Assembly (NCBI RefSeq): GCF_002119765.1
Contig: NZ_CP021112.1
Span: 3,528,501-3,592,500, forward strand
From: Pseudorhodoplanes sinuspersici
GTDB lineage: Bacteria; Pseudomonadota; Alphaproteobacteria; Rhizobiales; Xanthobacteraceae
DNA: 64,000 bases
Direction of reading: 5' to 3'
Below, piece by piece: positions 45,824 to 57,795 of this stretch (its first letter is position 1; each line of letters opens with the position of its first letter). The notes beneath the pieces are model-generated. The model was not told the DNA's origin. It ran no database searches and saw only the letters and a program-made list of their open reading frames with translations. A program made the translations under genes and the position numbers.

Positions 45824-47536
45824 ATGCCCGTGAAGATCAAACGGTCCGTCTATGCCGACATGTTCGGCCCCACCAAGGACGATCGCGTTCGGCTGGCCGA
45901 TACCGACATCATCATCGAGGTGGAGAAGGACTTCACCGTCTATGGCGAGGAGGTGAAGTTCGGCGGCGGCAAGGTGATCCGTGACGGGATGGGGCAGTCG
46001 CAAATCACCAACAAGCAGGGCGCGGTCGACACCGTCATCACCAATGCGCTGATCCTCGATCACTGGGGCATCGTGAAGGCCGATGTCGGGTTGAAGGACG
46101 GCAAGATCCACTCCATCGGCAAGGCCGGCAATCCGGATATCCAGCCGGGCGTGACCATCATCGTCGGACCGGGCACCGAAGTGATCGCGGGCGAGGGCAA
46201 GATCCTCACCGCCGGGGGCTTCGATACGCATATCCATTTCATCTGCCCGCAGCAGATCGATGATGCGCTGATGTCCGGCGTGACGTCACTCCTTGGCGGC
46301 GGCACGGGACCGGCGCATGGCACCTTCGCCACCACCTGTACGCCAGGCCCGTGGCACATCGCCCGCATGATCCAAGCAGCGGATGCATTCCCGGTCAATC
46401 TCGGTTTTGCCGGCAAGGGCAACGCCTCGCGGCCGGCCGCGCTCGAAGAAATGGTGAAGGGCGGCGCCTGTGCGCTCAAGCTGCACGAAGACTGGGGCAC
46501 GACACCGGCGGCGATCGACAATTGTCTCAGCGTCGCCGACGATCACGACATCCAGGTGATGATCCACACCGACACGCTGAATGAATCCGGCTTCGTCGAG
46601 GACACGATCAAGGCCTTCAAGGGCCGCACCATCCACGCCTTTCACACCGAAGGCGCGGGCGGCGGCCATGCGCCCGACATCATGAAGGTGGCCGGCCTGA
46701 AGAACGTGCTGCCGTCCTCCACAAATCCGACACGGCCGTTCACGAAGAACACCATCGACGAACATCTCGACATGCTGATGGTGTGCCACCATCTCGACCC
46801 GTCGATTGCCGAAGACCTCGCCTTTGCCGAAAGCCGTATCCGCAAGGAGACCATCGCGGCCGAAGACATTCTTCACGATCTCGGCGCGCTGTCGATGATG
46901 TCTTCGGACAGCCAGGCGATGGGCCGGATCGGCGAAGTCATCATCCGCACCTGGCAGACCGCCGACAAGATGAAGCGCCAGCGCGGGCGTCTGAAGGACG
47001 AAAAAGGTGACAACGACAACGTCCGCGCCAAACGCTACATCGCCAAATATACGATCAACCCGGCAATCGCGCATGGCGTCTCGCATGTCATCGGTTCGAT
47101 TGAAAAGGGCAAGATGGCCGATCTCGTTCTCTGGTCGCCGGCCTTTTTCGGGGTGAAGCCCGATTGCATCATCAAGGGCGGCTCGATTGTCGCCGCGCAG
47201 ATGGGCGATCCCAATGCCTCGATCCCGACGCCGCAGCCAGTGCATTACCGGCCGATGTTCGGCGCCTTCGGCCGCGCGCTGACCGCGTCGTCGGTGGTGT
47301 TCACGTCAAACGCCGCCGTGCGCGCCGGGCTCGGCAAGAAACTCGGCATCCAGAAGCAGATGGTGGCGGTGAAAAACACCCGCGGCGGCATCTCCAAAAA
47401 GAGCATGATCCACAACGGTGCGACGCCAAAGCTCGACATTGACCCGGAAACCTATGAAGTGAGGGCTGATGGCGAATTGCTGACCTGCGAGCCCGCCGAC
47501 GTGCTGCCGATGGCGCAACGGTATTTCCTGTTCTAA
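45824..47536 (+). CDS. ureC: Urease subunit alpha UreC
   Basis: The 570-residue catalytic subunit hydrolyses urea at a dinickel centre. All ligands are present: His136 and His138 (DTHIHF), the carbamylated Lys219 ([10 protein letters not shown]), His in MIHTDTLNE and [15 protein letters not shown], and Asp362 (SSDSQAMGR); the mobile-flap Cys lies in VCHHLDP. Length and sequence are normal for bacterial UreC. Confidence 0.98.
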
Positions 47537-48326: not shown

Positions 48327-48824
48327 ATGTATCGGGTCACGAACATTAAGCCCGCCGGTTCCTGGGTGATGGCCGAGGCTGTCGACCGTGTCACCCTCGA
48401 TGCGGATGATCGTACGCGCCGCCGTATCGTGCTGACTGGCGAAAACGGCACACAGTTTCTGCTCGATTTTGTAAGCCCGGTGACTTTGCATCACGGCGAC
48501 GGGCTGGTGCTGGATGACGGCTCCATCGTTCTGGTGGCCGGCATGCCGGAGCCGCTGGCGGAAATCGCTGCCTCGTCGCCGCGCGAATTCGTGCGTCTCG
48601 CCTGGCATCTCGGCAACCGGCACACCGACGTGCAGATCACAGGTTCACGCATTCGCATCCGACGAGATCATGTGCTGGAGGATATGATGCGCGGGCTCGG
48701 CGCGACGGTGACTTTGATCGATGCGCCGTTCGAGCCGCATGCGACGGTGCCGCACAGCCATGATCATGAGCACGCGCATCACCATCATCACGGTGATCAT
48801 CACGGCCACGACCATGAGCGGTAG
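48327..48824 (+). CDS. ureE: Urease accessory protein UreE
   Basis: The 165-residue nickel chaperone has the UreE N-terminal domain ([32 protein letters not shown]) and the C-terminal metal-binding domain ([17 protein letters not shown], with the conserved His), then a His-rich tail with about 14 histidines in the last 27 residues. The ATG at 48327 starts the homologous region; a TTG five codons earlier is possible. The His tail stores or buffers nickel. The 3' end overlaps the ureF start. Confidence 0.95.
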
Positions 48825-49713
48825 GAAGAGAAATTTGCCGCTGCGGAAAAAGGGAGAGCGGCAGGAGCGCAAGCAGTCGCGGCATGTTTACCTCACCCCT
48901 TGTGGGGGAGGTCGACCGCCGGAGCCAAGCGACGGCGGGCGGGAGGGGAATATCCGTGATCAGGCGCAGCCTCTAGCCACCCCCCTCCCTAACTCACCCC
49001 CACAAGGGGGGAGTGAACTGTCCGGTGATCGTGGAGGGAGTGCATTCCTCTATCGCCTGATGGCGTGGCTGTCGCCGTCCTATCCCGTCGGCGCATTCTC
49101 CTATTCCAGCGGCATCGAATGGGTGGTGGAAGCCGGGGATATCAAAGATGCAGCGACGCTGATCGACTGGCTTTCGCTGATGATGAGCAACGGCGCAGGA
49201 TTTTGCGACGCCGTGCTGTTCGTGCATGCGCATCGCGCGACATCGGATGATAATGAAGCCGCGTTGCGCGACGTGGCCGAACTGGCCGCGGCTTTCTCGC
49301 CGACCAAGGAGCGTCATCTCGAAACCACGGCGCAGGGGCGGGCCTTCATCGATGCCACCCGCGCGGCCTGGGCGTGCGAGAGCCTGTCGCTGCTGGCAAA
49401 GGCGTGGGATGGCCCGGTCGCTTATCCCGTCGCGGTCGGCGTCACTTGCGCGGGCCACGGCATGACGGTGGACGTCGCGTTACCGGCTCTCCTTCACGCG
49501 GTCGCGGCCAACTGGATTTCCGCCGGCGTGCGGCTGATCCCGCTCGGGCAGACCGACGGCCAGCGCGTGCTGGCAGCGCTGGAGCCGGTAATCGTTGTCA
49601 CAGCGGCGAGGGCGCTCACGTCATCGCTGGACGATATCGGCAGCGCCACGTTCCGCGCCGATCTCGCTTCGATGCGACATGAGACACAATATACGAGGTT
49701 GTTTAGATCATGA
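48814..49713 (+). CDS. ureF: Urease accessory protein UreF with repeat-encoded N-terminal extension
   Basis: The conserved UreF core begins at [21 protein letters not shown] (encoded from about 49048) and includes [19 protein letters not shown] and [13 protein letters not shown]. No ATG, GTG or TTG lies in frame just before this core. The nearest starts are the ATG at 48814, overlapping the UreE stop, and a TTG at 48835 with AGGAAG six bases before it. Either choice translates the whole family C repeat (48888-49016) into an extension of about 70 residues rich in Pro, Gly and Arg. UreF acts in the UreDFG complex that gates nickel delivery; it is normally about 225 residues. Confidence 0.92.
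48888..49016. repeat. Palindromic repeat, family C, in frame within ureF
   Basis: Ends CCTCACCCCTTGTGGGGGAGG and CTCACCCCCACAAGGGGGGAG are inverted copies; inner parts include GTCGACCGCCGGAGCC and GGGCGGGAGGGG. The same layout occurs at 53850-53970 and 56334-56468. It has no stop codon in the ureF frame. Confidence 0.85.
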
Positions 49714-49721
49714 CTCTCCAC

Positions 49722-49814
49722 TCGTCGTCGCCGGGCTTGACCCGGCGATCCCGATCAGGGACGCACAACCTTGCCCTCCTAAGCGGGGTGGCAGGGTCAA
49801 GCCCGGCCATGACA
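49722..49814. repeat. Intergenic repeat, family B, upstream of ureG
   Basis: Arms GTCGCCGGGCTTGACCCGGC and GGTCAAGCCCGGCCATGAC flank CGATCCCGATCAGGGACGC. Translation in one frame gives the well-known spurious GLDPAI...KPGHD sequence of Hyphomicrobiales genomes. A second copy in the same orientation lies at 50471-50626, so ureG is between direct repeats. Confidence 0.85.
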
Positions 49815-52938: not shown

Positions 52939-53048
52939 CCTTCATGGTTTGAGACGCGATGCTGCGCATCGCTTCTCACCATGAGGGTGAAGAACTCAAA
53001 TCCTCATCCCGAGAAGCATTGCGAAGCAATGCGTCTCGAAGGATGAGA
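52939..53048. repeat. Intergenic repeat, family D, between paaB and paaC
   Basis: Elements GAGACGCGATGCTGCGCATCGC and GCATTGCGAAGCAATGCGTC form internal hairpins, framed by CCTTCATGG and CTCGAAGGATGAG. A related copy is at 30145-30234. Inside the paa operon it is transcribed and could separate paaAB from paaCDE on the message. The paaC frame stays open through it. Confidence 0.75.
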
Positions 53049-53060
53049 GCCGAGGTGCAA

Positions 53061-53816
53061 ATGACCGAAACCCCGCTTTTCGCCTACACGCTGCGGCTTG
53101 CCGATAATGCGTTGATCCTCGGTCATCGCGTGTCGGAATGGGTGGGTCATGCGCCGGTGCTGGAAGAAGACCTTGCGCTGGGCAATCTGGCGCTCGATCT
53201 GATCGGCCAGGCGCGGTCGTTCTACACTTATGCCGGCGAGATCGAGGGGAAAGGTCGCGACGAGGACGCGCTCGCTTATCTCCGCGACGCCGGTGGCTAT
53301 CGCAACATTCTGCTGGTCGAGCAGCCGAACGGCGACTTCGCGCAGACCATCGTTCGGCATTTGCTCTATTCCGCTTTCGCCCATCCCTATTTCGAGGCGC
53401 TTGCGCGCTCGAAGGATGAAACGCTCGCGGCCATTGCCGCCAAGGCGGTCAAGGAAATGGCCTATCATGTCCGCCACACCGCCGAATGGACCATCCGTCT
53501 CGGCGATGGCACCGACGAAAGCCACCGGCGCGCGCAATCTGCGCTTGATGAATTGTGGCCCTTCACCGGCGAATTGTTCGAAACTGATCAGGTCGAACGC
53601 GCGCTGATCGATGCCGGTATCGCCGTCGATCCTTTGAACATCCGCGCGCGCTGGTCGAAGATGCTGGATGAAGTGTTTGACGAGGCGACGCTGGTGCGTC
53701 CAAGCGACGGTTATATGCAGAGTGGCGGCCGCAGCGGCCGGCATAGCGAGCATCTCGGCTATGTCCTGACCGAGCTGCAATTCCTCCAGCGCACCTATCC
53801 GGGAGCGAAGTGGTGA
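53061..53816 (+). CDS. paaC: 1,2-phenylacetyl-CoA epoxidase subunit PaaC
   Basis: The 251-residue protein is the structural ferritin-like partner of PaaA: LGHRVSEWVGHAPVLEEDLA, LDLIGQARSFYTYAGEIEGKG and VKEMAYHVRHTAEWTIRLGDG. The ATG at 53061 follows GAGGTGCAA; the frame extends upstream through the family D repeat to 52959. The 3' end overlaps the paaD start. Confidence 0.95.
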   Translation: MTETPLFAYTLRLADNALILGHRVSEWVGHAPVLEEDLALGNLALDLIGQARSFYTYAGEIEGKGRDEDALAYLRDAGGYRNILLVEQPNGDFAQTIVRHLLYSAFAHPYFEALARSKDETLAAIAAKAVKEMAYHVRHTAEWTIRLGDGTDESHRRAQSALDELWPFTGELFETDQVERALIDAGIAVDPLNIRARWSKMLDEVFDEATLVRPSDGYMQSGGRSGRHSEHLGYVLTELQFLQRTYPGAKW

Positions 53817-54469
53817 TTGCGATGGTAAAGGGCACGCCCATAGCCAAGACTCTACCTCCCCCTGAAAAGGGGAGGTCGGATCGCGCAGCGATCCGGGCGG
53901 GGGTCATGCCGGCTTCTGAAATGGACCCCCACCCCAACCCTCCCCCTTCCAGGGGGAGGGAGAAGAGAGAGCGTGACGACGCTGACGCGGATGACCTTCG
54001 CGCGCTCGCCTGGAAAGCCGCTGCCTCTGTCGTCGATCCGGAAATACCGGTGCTCTCGATCGCCGATCTTGGCGTGTTGCGCGATGTGCAGATCGTTGAT
54101 GGCACGGCCGAGGTAACGATCACGCCGACCTATTCCGGCTGCCCCGCGATGAATCTGATCGCACTGAATGTCGAGCTGGCTTTGGAAGAAGTTGGCTTCG
54201 TCACGCCGCGCATCAAGACGGTGCTATCGCCGGCCTGGACCACGGATTGGATGACCGAGAAGGGTAAAGAGACGCTCCGCAAATACGGCATCGCGCCGCC
54301 GGCCGGCAAGGCCTCGCGCCGCGCTCTATTCGGCGAGGATCAAGTTGCTTGCCCGCACTGCGCGTCAACGGACACAGAACGCATTTCTGAATTCGGTTCG
54401 ACTGCCTGCAAGGCGCTCTGGCGTTGCCGCGCCTGCGCCGAACCGTTCGATTATTTCAAATGCATATGA
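53810..54469 (+). CDS. paaD: Phenylacetyl-CoA epoxidase maturation protein PaaD with repeat-encoded N-terminus
   Basis: The PaaD core (DUF59/MIP18-type plus a C-terminal zinc-ribbon region) runs from about 53985: ALAWKAAASVVDPEIPVLSI, YSGCPAMNLIALNVELALEE, then CPHCASTDTERISEFGSTAC and CRACAEPFDYFKC with four or more cysteines. It supports iron-sulfur or di-iron assembly. The GTG at 53810/53813 has GGGAG five to eight bases upstream and overlaps the paaC stop. Translation from it passes through a family C repeat (53850-53970), adding about 50 residues with no homology. An ATG inside the repeat (53906) is the only other in-frame ATG near the core. Confidence 0.93.
   Translation: MVIAMVKGTPIAKTLPPPEKGRSDRAAIRAGVMPASEMDPHPNPPPSRGREKRERDDADADDLRALAWKAAASVVDPEIPVLSIADLGVLRDVQIVDGTAEVTITPTYSGCPAMNLIALNVELALEEVGFVTPRIKTVLSPAWTTDWMTEKGKETLRKYGIAPPAGKASRRALFGEDQVACPHCASTDTERISEFGSTACKALWRCRACAEPFDYFKCI
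53850..53970. repeat. Palindromic repeat, family C, in frame within paaD
   Basis: Arms CCTCCCCCTGAAAAGGGGAGG and CCCTCCCCCTTCCAGGGGGAGG are separate hairpins; GATCGCGCAGCGATC forms the inner stem. It matches the layout of the ureF copy (48888-49016) and of 56334-56468. Confidence 0.85.
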
Positions 54470-55687: not shown

Positions 55688-56314
55688 CTACGCCCTCCGC
55701 TTGGTCTTCGTTTGCGCCGGCACAGTCAGCGCTTGCGCGCCTTCCAGCAAAACAGTCGTTGCCAAGTCGGCATAGGCTTCGCGGCTCATCACGCCCTGTT
55801 CGCGAAACCACATGTAATGCCAGTTGAGCATGCCGAACAGCGACATGGTCACGGGCTTCAGCAGCTCCTTGCTGCGCGCAATGGCCGGCAGCGCGTCGGC
55901 AATAGCCTCCGCAAAAACCGCAACCAGCTCACGTTCCATGCCGACCAATGCCTCGTGCCGATCCTCCGGCAGCTTCGACATCTCGTTGATCTGGATTTTG
56001 TGCTCGTGATCGGCATCGCGGTAAGCTTCGAGCAGTGCGCCAACGAGGCCGCGCAATCGCACACGCGGCTCGAGTGAACGGTCAACCGCATTCACCGCAT
56101 CGATCAGAGCCTGCAGATGCTCACGAAGGATGTCGAAGAGCAGTGTCTCCTTGCCGACATAATAGTGGTAGAGCAGGGCCTTCGACACGCCGCAGGCCGC
56201 CGCGACTTCCGCCATCGAGGTTCGGTCGAAACCGTTCTTCGCAAACAATCCCGCCGATTGCGCGAGGATCGCACGGCGCTTGATGTCGTGATCGGCGGAG
56301 CGGGGACGGGCCAT
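55688..56314 (-). CDS. TetR family regulator of the paa cluster (PaaR-like)
   Basis: The 208-residue protein has the TetR helix-turn-helix at residues about 12-58 (ILAQSAGLFAKNGFDRTSMA, VAAACGVSKALLYHYYVGKE) and a helical ligand domain. Its place between paaABCDE and paaK makes it a PaaR-type regulator that probably senses phenylacetyl-CoA. A GACCGGACGGTC dyad between paaG and paaN is a candidate target. Confidence 0.9.
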   Translation of the reverse strand: MARPRSADHDIKRRAILAQSAGLFAKNGFDRTSMAEVAAACGVSKALLYHYYVGKETLLFDILREHLQALIDAVNAVDRSLEPRVRLRGLVGALLEAYRDADHEHKIQINEMSKLPEDRHEALVGMERELVAVFAEAIADALPAIARSKELLKPVTMSLFGMLNWHYMWFREQGVMSREAYADLATTVLLEGAQALTVPAQTKTKRRA

Positions 56315-56333: not shown

Positions 56334-56468
56334 TTCTCCCTCCCCCCTTGCGGGGGAGGGTTGGGGAGGGGGGCAAGCGGCAAACCTTGTGCTTGCGATT
56401 TACCCCCCTCCCGACCGTCTTCGCTTTCAGCTTCGGCGGTCGACCTCCCCCGCAAGGGGGGAGGTAAG
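56334..56468. repeat. Palindromic repeat, family C, between paaR-like gene and paaK
   Basis: Arms CCCTCCCCCCTTGCGGGGGAGG and ACCTCCCCCGCAAGGGGGGAGG flank GGTCGGGAGGGGGGT-type and GCCGAAGCTGAAAGCGAAG segments (minus orientation). This is the intergenic member of the family found in frame in ureF and paaD. Confidence 0.85.
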
Positions 56469-56487: not shown

Positions 56488-57795
56488 TTACTTCGGTCTC
56501 TTGTCCACGACACGCCGCGCTTTGCCGGCCGAGCGCTCGATTGTCCCCGGATCGCGGACCATGACGCTGATGCCGATGCCGATCGTGTTGCGGATATGCA
56601 TGGCGAGCGCCGCGGCTTCGGCATTGCGTGTCGTGGCCTCACCGCAATCGGGCCGCGCCTCAACAAAGATCGTCGCGACGTCCAGCCGCTCTTGGCGCGA
56701 CAATTCGATCAGGTAGTGCGGTGACAACCCCTGGCAGCGCAAAAGCAATTCCTCGATCTGGGTCGGAAACACGTTGACGCCGCGGATGATCATCATGTCG
56801 TCGGAGCGGCCGGTGACCTTCTCCATGCGGCGATGCGTTCGCGCGGTGCCCGGCAGGAGGCGCGTGAGGTCGCGCGTGCGATAGCGGATCACCGGCAAAC
56901 CTTCCTTGGTCAGCGTGGTGAAGACGAGTTCGCCCTTCTCGCCGTCTGGCAGCGGATTGCCGCTCTCCGGATCGATCACTTCGGGATAGAAATGGTCCTC
57001 CCAAATATGCAGGCCGTCTTTCGTTTCGACGCATTCGTTGGCGACGCCAGGTCCCATCACTTCGGACAGGCCGAAGATATCCACCGCGTCCATCGCGAAG
57101 GCCTCTTCGATCTCGCCGCGCATCTGGTTGGTCCAGGGCTCGGCGCCGAAAATGCCGATCGACAAAGACGACTCGCGCGGATCAAGGCCCTTGGCGCGGA
57201 ATTCATCGAGGATCGCCAGCATGTAGCTCGGCGTCACCATGATGATGTCGGGCTTGAAATCGCAGATGAGCTGGACCTGCCGCTCGGTCATGCCGCCGGA
57301 CACCGGAATCACTGCGCAGCCGAGTCTTTCCGCACCGTAGTGCGCGCCAAGCCCGCCGGTGAACAGACCATAGCCATAGGCGATATGCACCTTCATGCCC
57401 GGCCGTCCGCCCGATGCTCTGATCGAGCGCGCCATCAGGTTCGCCCAATTGTCGATATCGGCCTGTGTATAGCCGACCACGGTCGGTTTTCCGGTCGTGC
57501 CGGATGACGCATGAATGCGGACGATCCTGTCCTGCGGTACCGCGAACATGCCAAACGGATAATTTTCGCGCAGGTCCGCCTTGGTCGTGAACGGAAATTT
57601 GGCGATGTCTTCGAGCCGCTTGAAATCCTGCGGCTTCACGCCAGCGGCATCGAATTTCTTCCGGTATGCCTCGACGTTGTCGTAAGCGTGCTTCAGCGAC
57701 CAGGCGAGCCGCTCCGTCTGCAGCGCCGCGATCTCGTCGCGCGAGGCAGTTTCGATCGGTTCAAGTCCGTAAGGCTTGTAGGATGCATCGACCAT
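56488..57795 (-). CDS. paaK: Phenylacetate-CoA ligase PaaK
   Basis: The 435-residue enzyme makes phenylacetyl-CoA, the first step of the pathway. The ATP motif is IHASSGTTGKPTVVGYTQAD (about 90-110), then GAHYGAERLGCAVIPVSGG, the hinge GRSDDMMIIRGVNVFPTQIE, and the C-terminal PaaK domain. It lacks the extended N-terminal domain of larger ANL enzymes, as expected for PaaK. It is on the minus strand, followed downstream by the TetR gene. Confidence 0.96.
   Translation of the reverse strand: MVDASYKPYGLEPIETASRDEIAALQTERLAWSLKHAYDNVEAYRKKFDAAGVKPQDFKRLEDIAKFPFTTKADLRENYPFGMFAVPQDRIVRIHASSGTTGKPTVVGYTQADIDNWANLMARSIRASGGRPGMKVHIAYGYGLFTGGLGAHYGAERLGCAVIPVSGGMTERQVQLICDFKPDIIMVTPSYMLAILDEFRAKGLDPRESSLSIGIFGAEPWTNQMRGEIEEAFAMDAVDIFGLSEVMGPGVANECVETKDGLHIWEDHFYPEVIDPESGNPLPDGEKGELVFTTLTKEGLPVIRYRTRDLTRLLPGTARTHRRMEKVTGRSDDMMIIRGVNVFPTQIEELLLRCQGLSPHYLIELSRQERLDVATIFVEARPDCGEATTRNAEAAALAMHIRNTIGIGISVMVRDPGTIERSAGKARRVVDKRPK

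Follow-up and report, generated by a model that had tools for sequence, protein, structure and literature searches.

Palindromic repeats in frame at the N-termini of PaaD and UreF in Pseudorhodoplanes sinuspersici and its relatives

The paaC/paaD junction

The window analyzed here is a stretch of 64,000 nucleotides (64 kb) at positions 3528501-3592500 of the genome of Pseudorhodoplanes sinuspersici, which is one closed contig of 5,971,615 bp; coordinates are those of the window unless a genome position is given. In this window paaC and paaD follow each other on the plus strand. The longest paaC ORF (52959..53816) matches TIGR02158 at 2.3e-94, with the profile beginning at residue 47, and the native start of the gene may be ATG 53061. 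The paaD ORF (53810..54469, plus strand) encodes 219 aa, element-encoded stretch included, and matches TIGR02159 at 4.8e-60; residues 74-219 correspond to the whole of this NCBIfam profile, its position 1 falling at residue 74, and the Pfam domains FeS_assembly_P and Zn_ribbon_PaaD are present in a paaABC-paaE context. The protein is nearest to the PaaD of Rhodopseudomonas/Bradyrhizobium-type alphaproteobacteria, and its host is presumably free-living.

The initial annotation had described paaD as read from a GTG that overlaps the paaC stop and is preceded by a good ribosome binding site, in a frame running through a repeat into the protein, and this is what the locus contains. Two consecutive GTG codons (53810..53815, plus strand) overlap the paaC stop TGA at 53814-53816, and a Shine-Dalgarno-like GGGAG (53801..53805, plus strand) lies within the end of paaC, 4 nt before GTG 53810 and 7 nt before GTG 53813. 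The frame is open from 53810 to 54469 and passes through a composite palindromic element of the family that we call C (53854..53962, plus strand), which scores 99.3 bits with the covariance model R1 and is one of the 10 copies from which that model was built. The stretch 53846-53975 folds with a z of -4.45, with 0 of 200 shuffles equally stable. No target-site duplication is obvious by eye at the element, and a search of the window against Rfam at gathering thresholds gave no match to it.

Reading towards the core, one meets the in-frame paaD starts GTG 53810, GTG 53813, ATG 53822, ATG 53906 (53906..53908, plus strand) and ATG 53921, the last two being located within the element, and then GTG 54050 (54050..54052, plus strand), the first in-frame ATG, GTG or TTG 3' of the element, which is already inside the conserved DPEIPV core. 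In a 39-row alignment GTG 54050 is placed after the invariant residues V74, D76, P77, E78 and P80, and a scan of the paaD sequence found no ATG, GTG or TTG in frame from the end of the element up to the conserved core; the earlier statement that the core lacks a start codon of its own thus holds. As a consequence, given ordinary starts, the coding part of the element comprises no less than its last 42 nt, and translation of PaaD through the repeat, which would then form an N-terminal peptide, is well supported by the sequence. AlphaFold2, run on the 39-row alignment, models residues 1-47 as coil (block pLDDT 44-68), followed by a helix at 48-72 and a core mostly above 90 pLDDT; the model predicts a floppy, disordered tail for the stretch that the element encodes.

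Family C in the source genome

Family C is a multicopy palindromic repeat, a composite of ~110 nt. Set side by side, its copies form a superfamily with a ACCTCCCCC...GGGGGAGGT hairpin followed by a variable hairpin; further parts are a GGGTGGGGGTC/GACCCCCACCC stem and a closing CCCTCCCCC...GGGGGAGGG hairpin, and sub-types exist, for example CCCTCCCCTGGAGGGGGAGGG. BLAST with the paaD element gave 54 matches in the genome, query included. The R1 model, for which all three copies in the window were among the 10 used, gave 105 matches at E <= 10, among which a single place was often counted on each strand; merging by hand left 69 places, 50 of which reach 40 bits or more, and this census is a lower bound, 150 of 4431 first-look candidates having been scored. 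One of the window's copies lies outside the two operons discussed here (56336..56465, minus strand, 114.8 bits with R1, also a model-building copy): it sits between a minus-strand ORF ending at 56488 and a minus-strand ORF beginning at 56314, which we take to be TetR-like. We infer that family C is mobile and that it reached paaD by insertion. A RAYT transposase was considered as the mobiliser and rejected, PF01797 (Y1) having 0 matches at E <= 0.01 in the source genome and the control search being positive in 6 of 14 genomes.

From the cases in the window it had been proposed that the repeat tends, throughout the genome, to insert in a stop-free frame that matches the downstream gene. This was examined at the 50 places of at least 40 bits, using a gene finder based on dicodons with a training set of 122 ORFs and considering gene 5' sides that face an element within 250 nt. 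The frame of the gene was open through the element at 15 of 39 such sides, against 15.3 expected (sd 2.7); there is no excess, and the proposed tendency is not borne out. Nor is a stop-free frame by itself a special sign, since by the same figures it is not unusual in a GC-rich element of this family. At gene 3' sides the frame was open in 22 of 53 cases against 18.7 expected (sd 3.0). The elements are flanked by tandem genes in 36 cases, by convergent genes in 10 and by divergent genes in 3 (n=49). A coding 3' end lies near the element, from 200 nt before it to inside it, in 46 of 50 places, and the distance from stop to element has a median of 18.5 nt, with 48 of 56 within 60 nt, these distances being descriptive figures.

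A single ORF spans the element in 9 of the 15 open cases. By eye, an in-frame ATG is found behind the element in five of these ORFs (L142, L144, L159, L161 and L182), and L174 has a possible GTG; in paaD, ureF and bioA no start is seen behind the element before the core. Candidate true fusions in the source genome are paaD, ureF, bioA and uvrB. In bioA (L173:1627-1792, genome 2660826-2660991) an ATG inside the element is apparently the start. In uvrB (L200:1501-1610, genome 3361982-3362091) a partial related element is in frame in the C-terminal part of the gene, with a score of 25 bits, below the 40-bit cut. Moreover, three elements (L161, L182 and L199; genome 3912465-3924144) are located, by eye, among gene-transfer-agent- or phage-like structural genes.

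The paaC/paaD junction in relatives

The survey of PaaD began with 162 loci; 2 without a recognised core and 7 without a recognised paaC end were removed and identical junctions were merged, leaving 147 distinct junctions. In these the distance from the paaC stop to the DPEIP core has quartiles of 62-82 nt and a median of 68 nt. It is 218 nt in the source genome versus 83 nt in the nearest relative, L003, and the excess of 135 nt equals 45 codons. Genome comparison found no empty paaD site closer than a relative whose PaaD is 82% identical. With the end of the stop codon of paaC as reference, an in-frame paaD start falls at -7 or -4 in 14 of the 16 loci examined, a count in which the script takes the first in-frame start and the exact codon is not proven. 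Because the paaD of relatives can start at the overlap with paaC, the element sits inside paaD's own N-terminus. The initial description of a repeat at a gene junction is thus correct in that the element adjoins the paaC stop, but the element is not intergenic: it stands within the native N-terminal coding region of paaD. The copy is carried in frame by a conserved gene, and most orthologues lack it. In 11 of the 147 junctions overall, the open paaD frame does not reach back as far as the stop of paaC.

In-frame palindromes occur at 4 of the 147 junctions, source genome included; the long inserts elsewhere are those of L116 (a Rhizobiaceae MAG), L117 (Mesorhizobium sp. J18) and L098 (a Methylobacteriaceae MAG), with fold z values of -12.5, -4.5 and -3.4, respectively, and of -4.1 in the source genome. 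The insert of L116 belongs to a near-perfect palindrome of about 115 nt, found in at least 40 places of the L116 genome, its own included (80 matches, mostly the two strands of one place, with 40 of 120 candidates scored). The insert of L117 has 13 matches in its genome, itself included, one other being full-length at 70%. In L298 the spacer measures 208 nt and is structured (z -3.7), the paaD frame is closed and the gene has its own later start; a palindrome at paaC/paaD therefore need not be coding. Long structured spacers are in frame in 4 of 5 cases, L298 being the exception. As for the other two frames, the four in-frame inserts leave them open in 1 of 8 instances, and L298 in 0 of 2.

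The ureE/ureF junction

The second case reported for the window is present as well. The ureF gene (48814..49713, plus strand, 299 aa, Pfam UreF 7.7e-40) is read from ATG 48814, overlapping the ureE stop at 48822-48824, and a family C element lies in frame in its N-terminus (48890..49017, plus strand; 96.1 bits with R1, also a model-building copy). Between 48838 and 49059 there is no in-frame ATG, GTG or TTG in ureF.

In relatives, 76 UreF loci were collected, of which 1 had no core and 3 had no recognised ureE stop, leaving 72. They were drawn from the 123 matching genomes of 159 searched, plus a few extra, one of them outside the family; nearly all belong to the family of the source genome, and they are mostly nearest matches and not a random draw. 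In 20 of the 72 loci a palindromic insert separates the ureF start from the UreF core, and the inserts are of four types: 13 C-type, 2 of type A (GGCCGGGC), 4 of type B (CCCGCGAAAGCGGG-like), which are weaker (z -0.7 to -5.7), and 1 of type T (TTCGAGA). Typing was done by a motif script and by eye, the script leaving L311 untyped and assigning two types to L212; L227, L309, L332 and L345, whose inserts look degenerate or doubtful, were left uncounted. Besides 48814-49017 of the window, the insert-bearing loci lie among L210-L222 and L306-L342. Used as queries, and counting matches instead of places, the C-type insert gave 17-83 matches in six genomes, type A gave 45 and 48 in G007 and G004, and type T gave 23 in G005; G001, whose ureF is without insert, had 2, 15 and 0 matches to the three queries. 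Each of these three types is present in many copies in its genomes.

All 20 inserts are open in the UreF frame, compared with 7 and 4 of 20 in the remaining two frames. The junctions from ureE to ureF are open in 72 of 72 loci, with or without inserts, as a constant ureF start at the overlap would lead one to expect. In the seven insert-bearing members of the source genus the insert follows, by eye, a shared KKNLPLVKG-like N-terminal motif and precedes the core. Within genus g1 the slot holds C, A or T or is empty; within genus g172 it holds B or C or is empty. On a tree of the UreF core (35 rows) the six labels need at least 15 changes, with a mean of 15.8 for shuffled labels and values as low in 78 of 200 shuffles, and the labels appear to show hardly any clustering by descent; L314 is labelled 'none' in this tree, although its N-terminus resembles half a C-type element. 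Good support is confined to nine of the 32 inner branches, which by themselves require only 1-3 changes per type; the tree is poorly resolved, so the ureF loci are not fully independent. A codon-position test on the ureF peptide before the inserts gave mismatches of 0.29/0.32/0.39 at positions 1/2/3, a signal too weak to be of use.

With both slots taken together, 24 of 25 palindromic inserts leave the host frame open (the exception is L298), versus 12 of 50 for the other frames. The idea of repeats placed in frame at gene junctions therefore stands for the overlapping pairs ureE/ureF (20/20) and paaC/paaD (4/5), but not as a general tendency of the genome. The non-random part is narrower: several palindrome types entered the N-termini of ureF and paaD repeatedly and in frame.

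Probable origin of the PaaD tail

In our judgment it is probable that a palindrome inserted behind the paaC stop, stop-free in the frame of paaD, and is now translated from GTG 53810/53813 as the tail of PaaD. A multicopy palindromic element would insert shortly after the stop codon of paaC; paaD would already start inside the end of paaC, and the landing place would thus be its N-terminal coding region. The copy in paaD would have survived because it is stop-free and keeps the downstream frame, and the roughly 45 extra residues relative to L003 would form a disordered tail before an unchanged PaaD core. The same rule could apply to ureF, with elements settling behind stops and, where the next gene overlaps, in-frame stop-free copies persisting. 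At overlaps only a copy of this kind would persist, except where the gene acquires a new start further downstream, the situation seen in L298. A survival filter of this kind, acting at overlaps, would leave no genome-wide excess and yet yield 24 of 25 inserts in frame at paaD and ureF; survival of in-frame copies explains the recurrence as well as targeted insertion would. Translation of PaaD would really begin upstream of the element, and by default we regard the element-encoded peptide as presumably neutral.

Other origins of the tail have to be weighed against this. PaaD might be initiated inside the element, at ATG 53906 or 53921, so that the first part of the element would be a leader and the rest an N-terminal peptide; the element does contain these two in-frame ATGs, and bioA (L173), which by eye has no in-frame ATG, GTG or TTG between the bioB stop and its element, has an in-frame ATG in it. 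We nevertheless consider this unlikely for PaaD, given that GTG 53810/53813 has a well-placed Shine-Dalgarno-like sequence and matches the overlap position of element-free relatives; moreover, the elements in the window's ureF, in L217 and in L313 hold no in-frame ATG, GTG or TTG, so starts inside the element do not explain the open ureF frames. It is very unlikely that the element is an untranslated intercistronic hairpin, with PaaD made from a non-canonical or frameshifted downstream start such as GTG 53973. This GTG is preceded by an AG-rich stretch, L298 is a case of such a hairpin, and the remarks on NH2-terminal REPs in Di Nocera 2013 (PMC3733652) caution that many of them are possibly non-coding, with downstream starts. 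However, GTG 53973 lies in another frame, so that its use would require a frameshift, in a genome that is one closed contig; relatives offer a start at the paaC overlap, and the host frame is preferentially open across the two slots (24/25 vs 12/50). GTG 53973 with a one-base shift was rejected as the PaaD start in view of the overlap start available in relatives and the open frame through the element.

The insertion and survival of in-frame copies has also to be set against readings in which the elements are more than tolerated. Four palindrome types in one ureF slot, and several types besides empty slots within single genera, would suit elements that target N-termini or carry a selected coding function; we find this quite unlikely, in view of the missing genome-wide frame excess (15/39 vs 15.3), the different peptides encoded by the different types and the low-confidence coil in the PaaD model. 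A bolder idea, improbable though conceivable, is that the N-termini of ureF and paaD are docking slots in which unrelated repeats are swapped over short evolutionary time, the hairpin or the tail being used in some lineages. If so, overlapping genes would convert 3'-end-seeking palindromes into protein-coding material; for example, coupled translation of the downstream subunit might be tuned, or a chaperone contact surface extended.

Relation to known repeats

Protein-coding palindromes are already known in the form of Rickettsia palindromic elements (RPEs), intragenic REPs and RU repeats. RPEs are described in a review (PMC10969869), which cites Ogata 2000 and Ogata 2002, as palindromes of about 150 bp in frame inside protein-coding genes. 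Family C is likewise a palindromic repeat in frame in coding genes, a likeness by description, but it belongs to an organism whose PaaD is nearest to that of Rhodopseudomonas/Bradyrhizobium-type alphaproteobacteria, and the inserts discussed here concern the N-termini of overlapping genes, with several types per slot. According to the account of intragenic repeats in Di Nocera et al. 2013 (PMC3733652), GTAG/CGTC REPs lie within proteins, a good share of them at the NH2 terminus; uvrB of R. conorii is interrupted by REPs, recB of two Xanthomonas species carries different REPs at about the same site, and REPs are found near the 3' ends of upstream ORFs. Family C resembles the REPs of that account in sitting behind stop codons and in decorating uvrB (L200), but it is a larger composite, and the GTAG tag was not seen by eye in the printed elements; the type A inserts (GTCATGGCCGGGC...) are similar by eye to CGTC REPs. 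The main text of PMC3733652 makes no mention of urease, UreF or PaaD.

Small mobile repeats of the enterobacterial RU/ERIC-like kind are reported as fused in frame to genes (Delihas 2007, PMC2759123); in conserved-family proteins the fusions treated there are at C-terminal regions, whereas those described here are N-terminal. The Br-REP1 and Br-REP2 repeats of Bradyrhizobium are alphaproteobacterial palindromes whose published description (PMC5082802) places them between genes and in 3'-UTRs, and the consensus given for them differs from family C. A literature search covering mainly openly available papers did not bring up any account of palindromes inserted in UreF or PaaD, nor of several types recurrently occupying a single N-terminal slot where genes overlap.

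The UreF slot, empty or holding one of four palindrome types within one bacterial family, offers a natural series for the passage from repeat to protein. The data suggest a simple rule, by which a repeat behind a stop codon together with a gene overlap gives an N-terminal fusion. This rule predicts which genes gain such tails, and annotators should consider that trimming such N-termini may be wrong.

Other features of the two operons

The paa and ure operons both carry repeats in several gene gaps. Another palindrome, of the TTCGAGA type, lies in the gap between paaB and paaC (53002-53047), and one of the CCGGGC type in the gap between ureF and ureG (49724-49813). The sole Rfam match in the window is 5_ureB_sRNA (116 bits), at 45980-46265 on the minus strand, where it lies in antisense orientation over the 5' part of an ORF resembling urease alpha.
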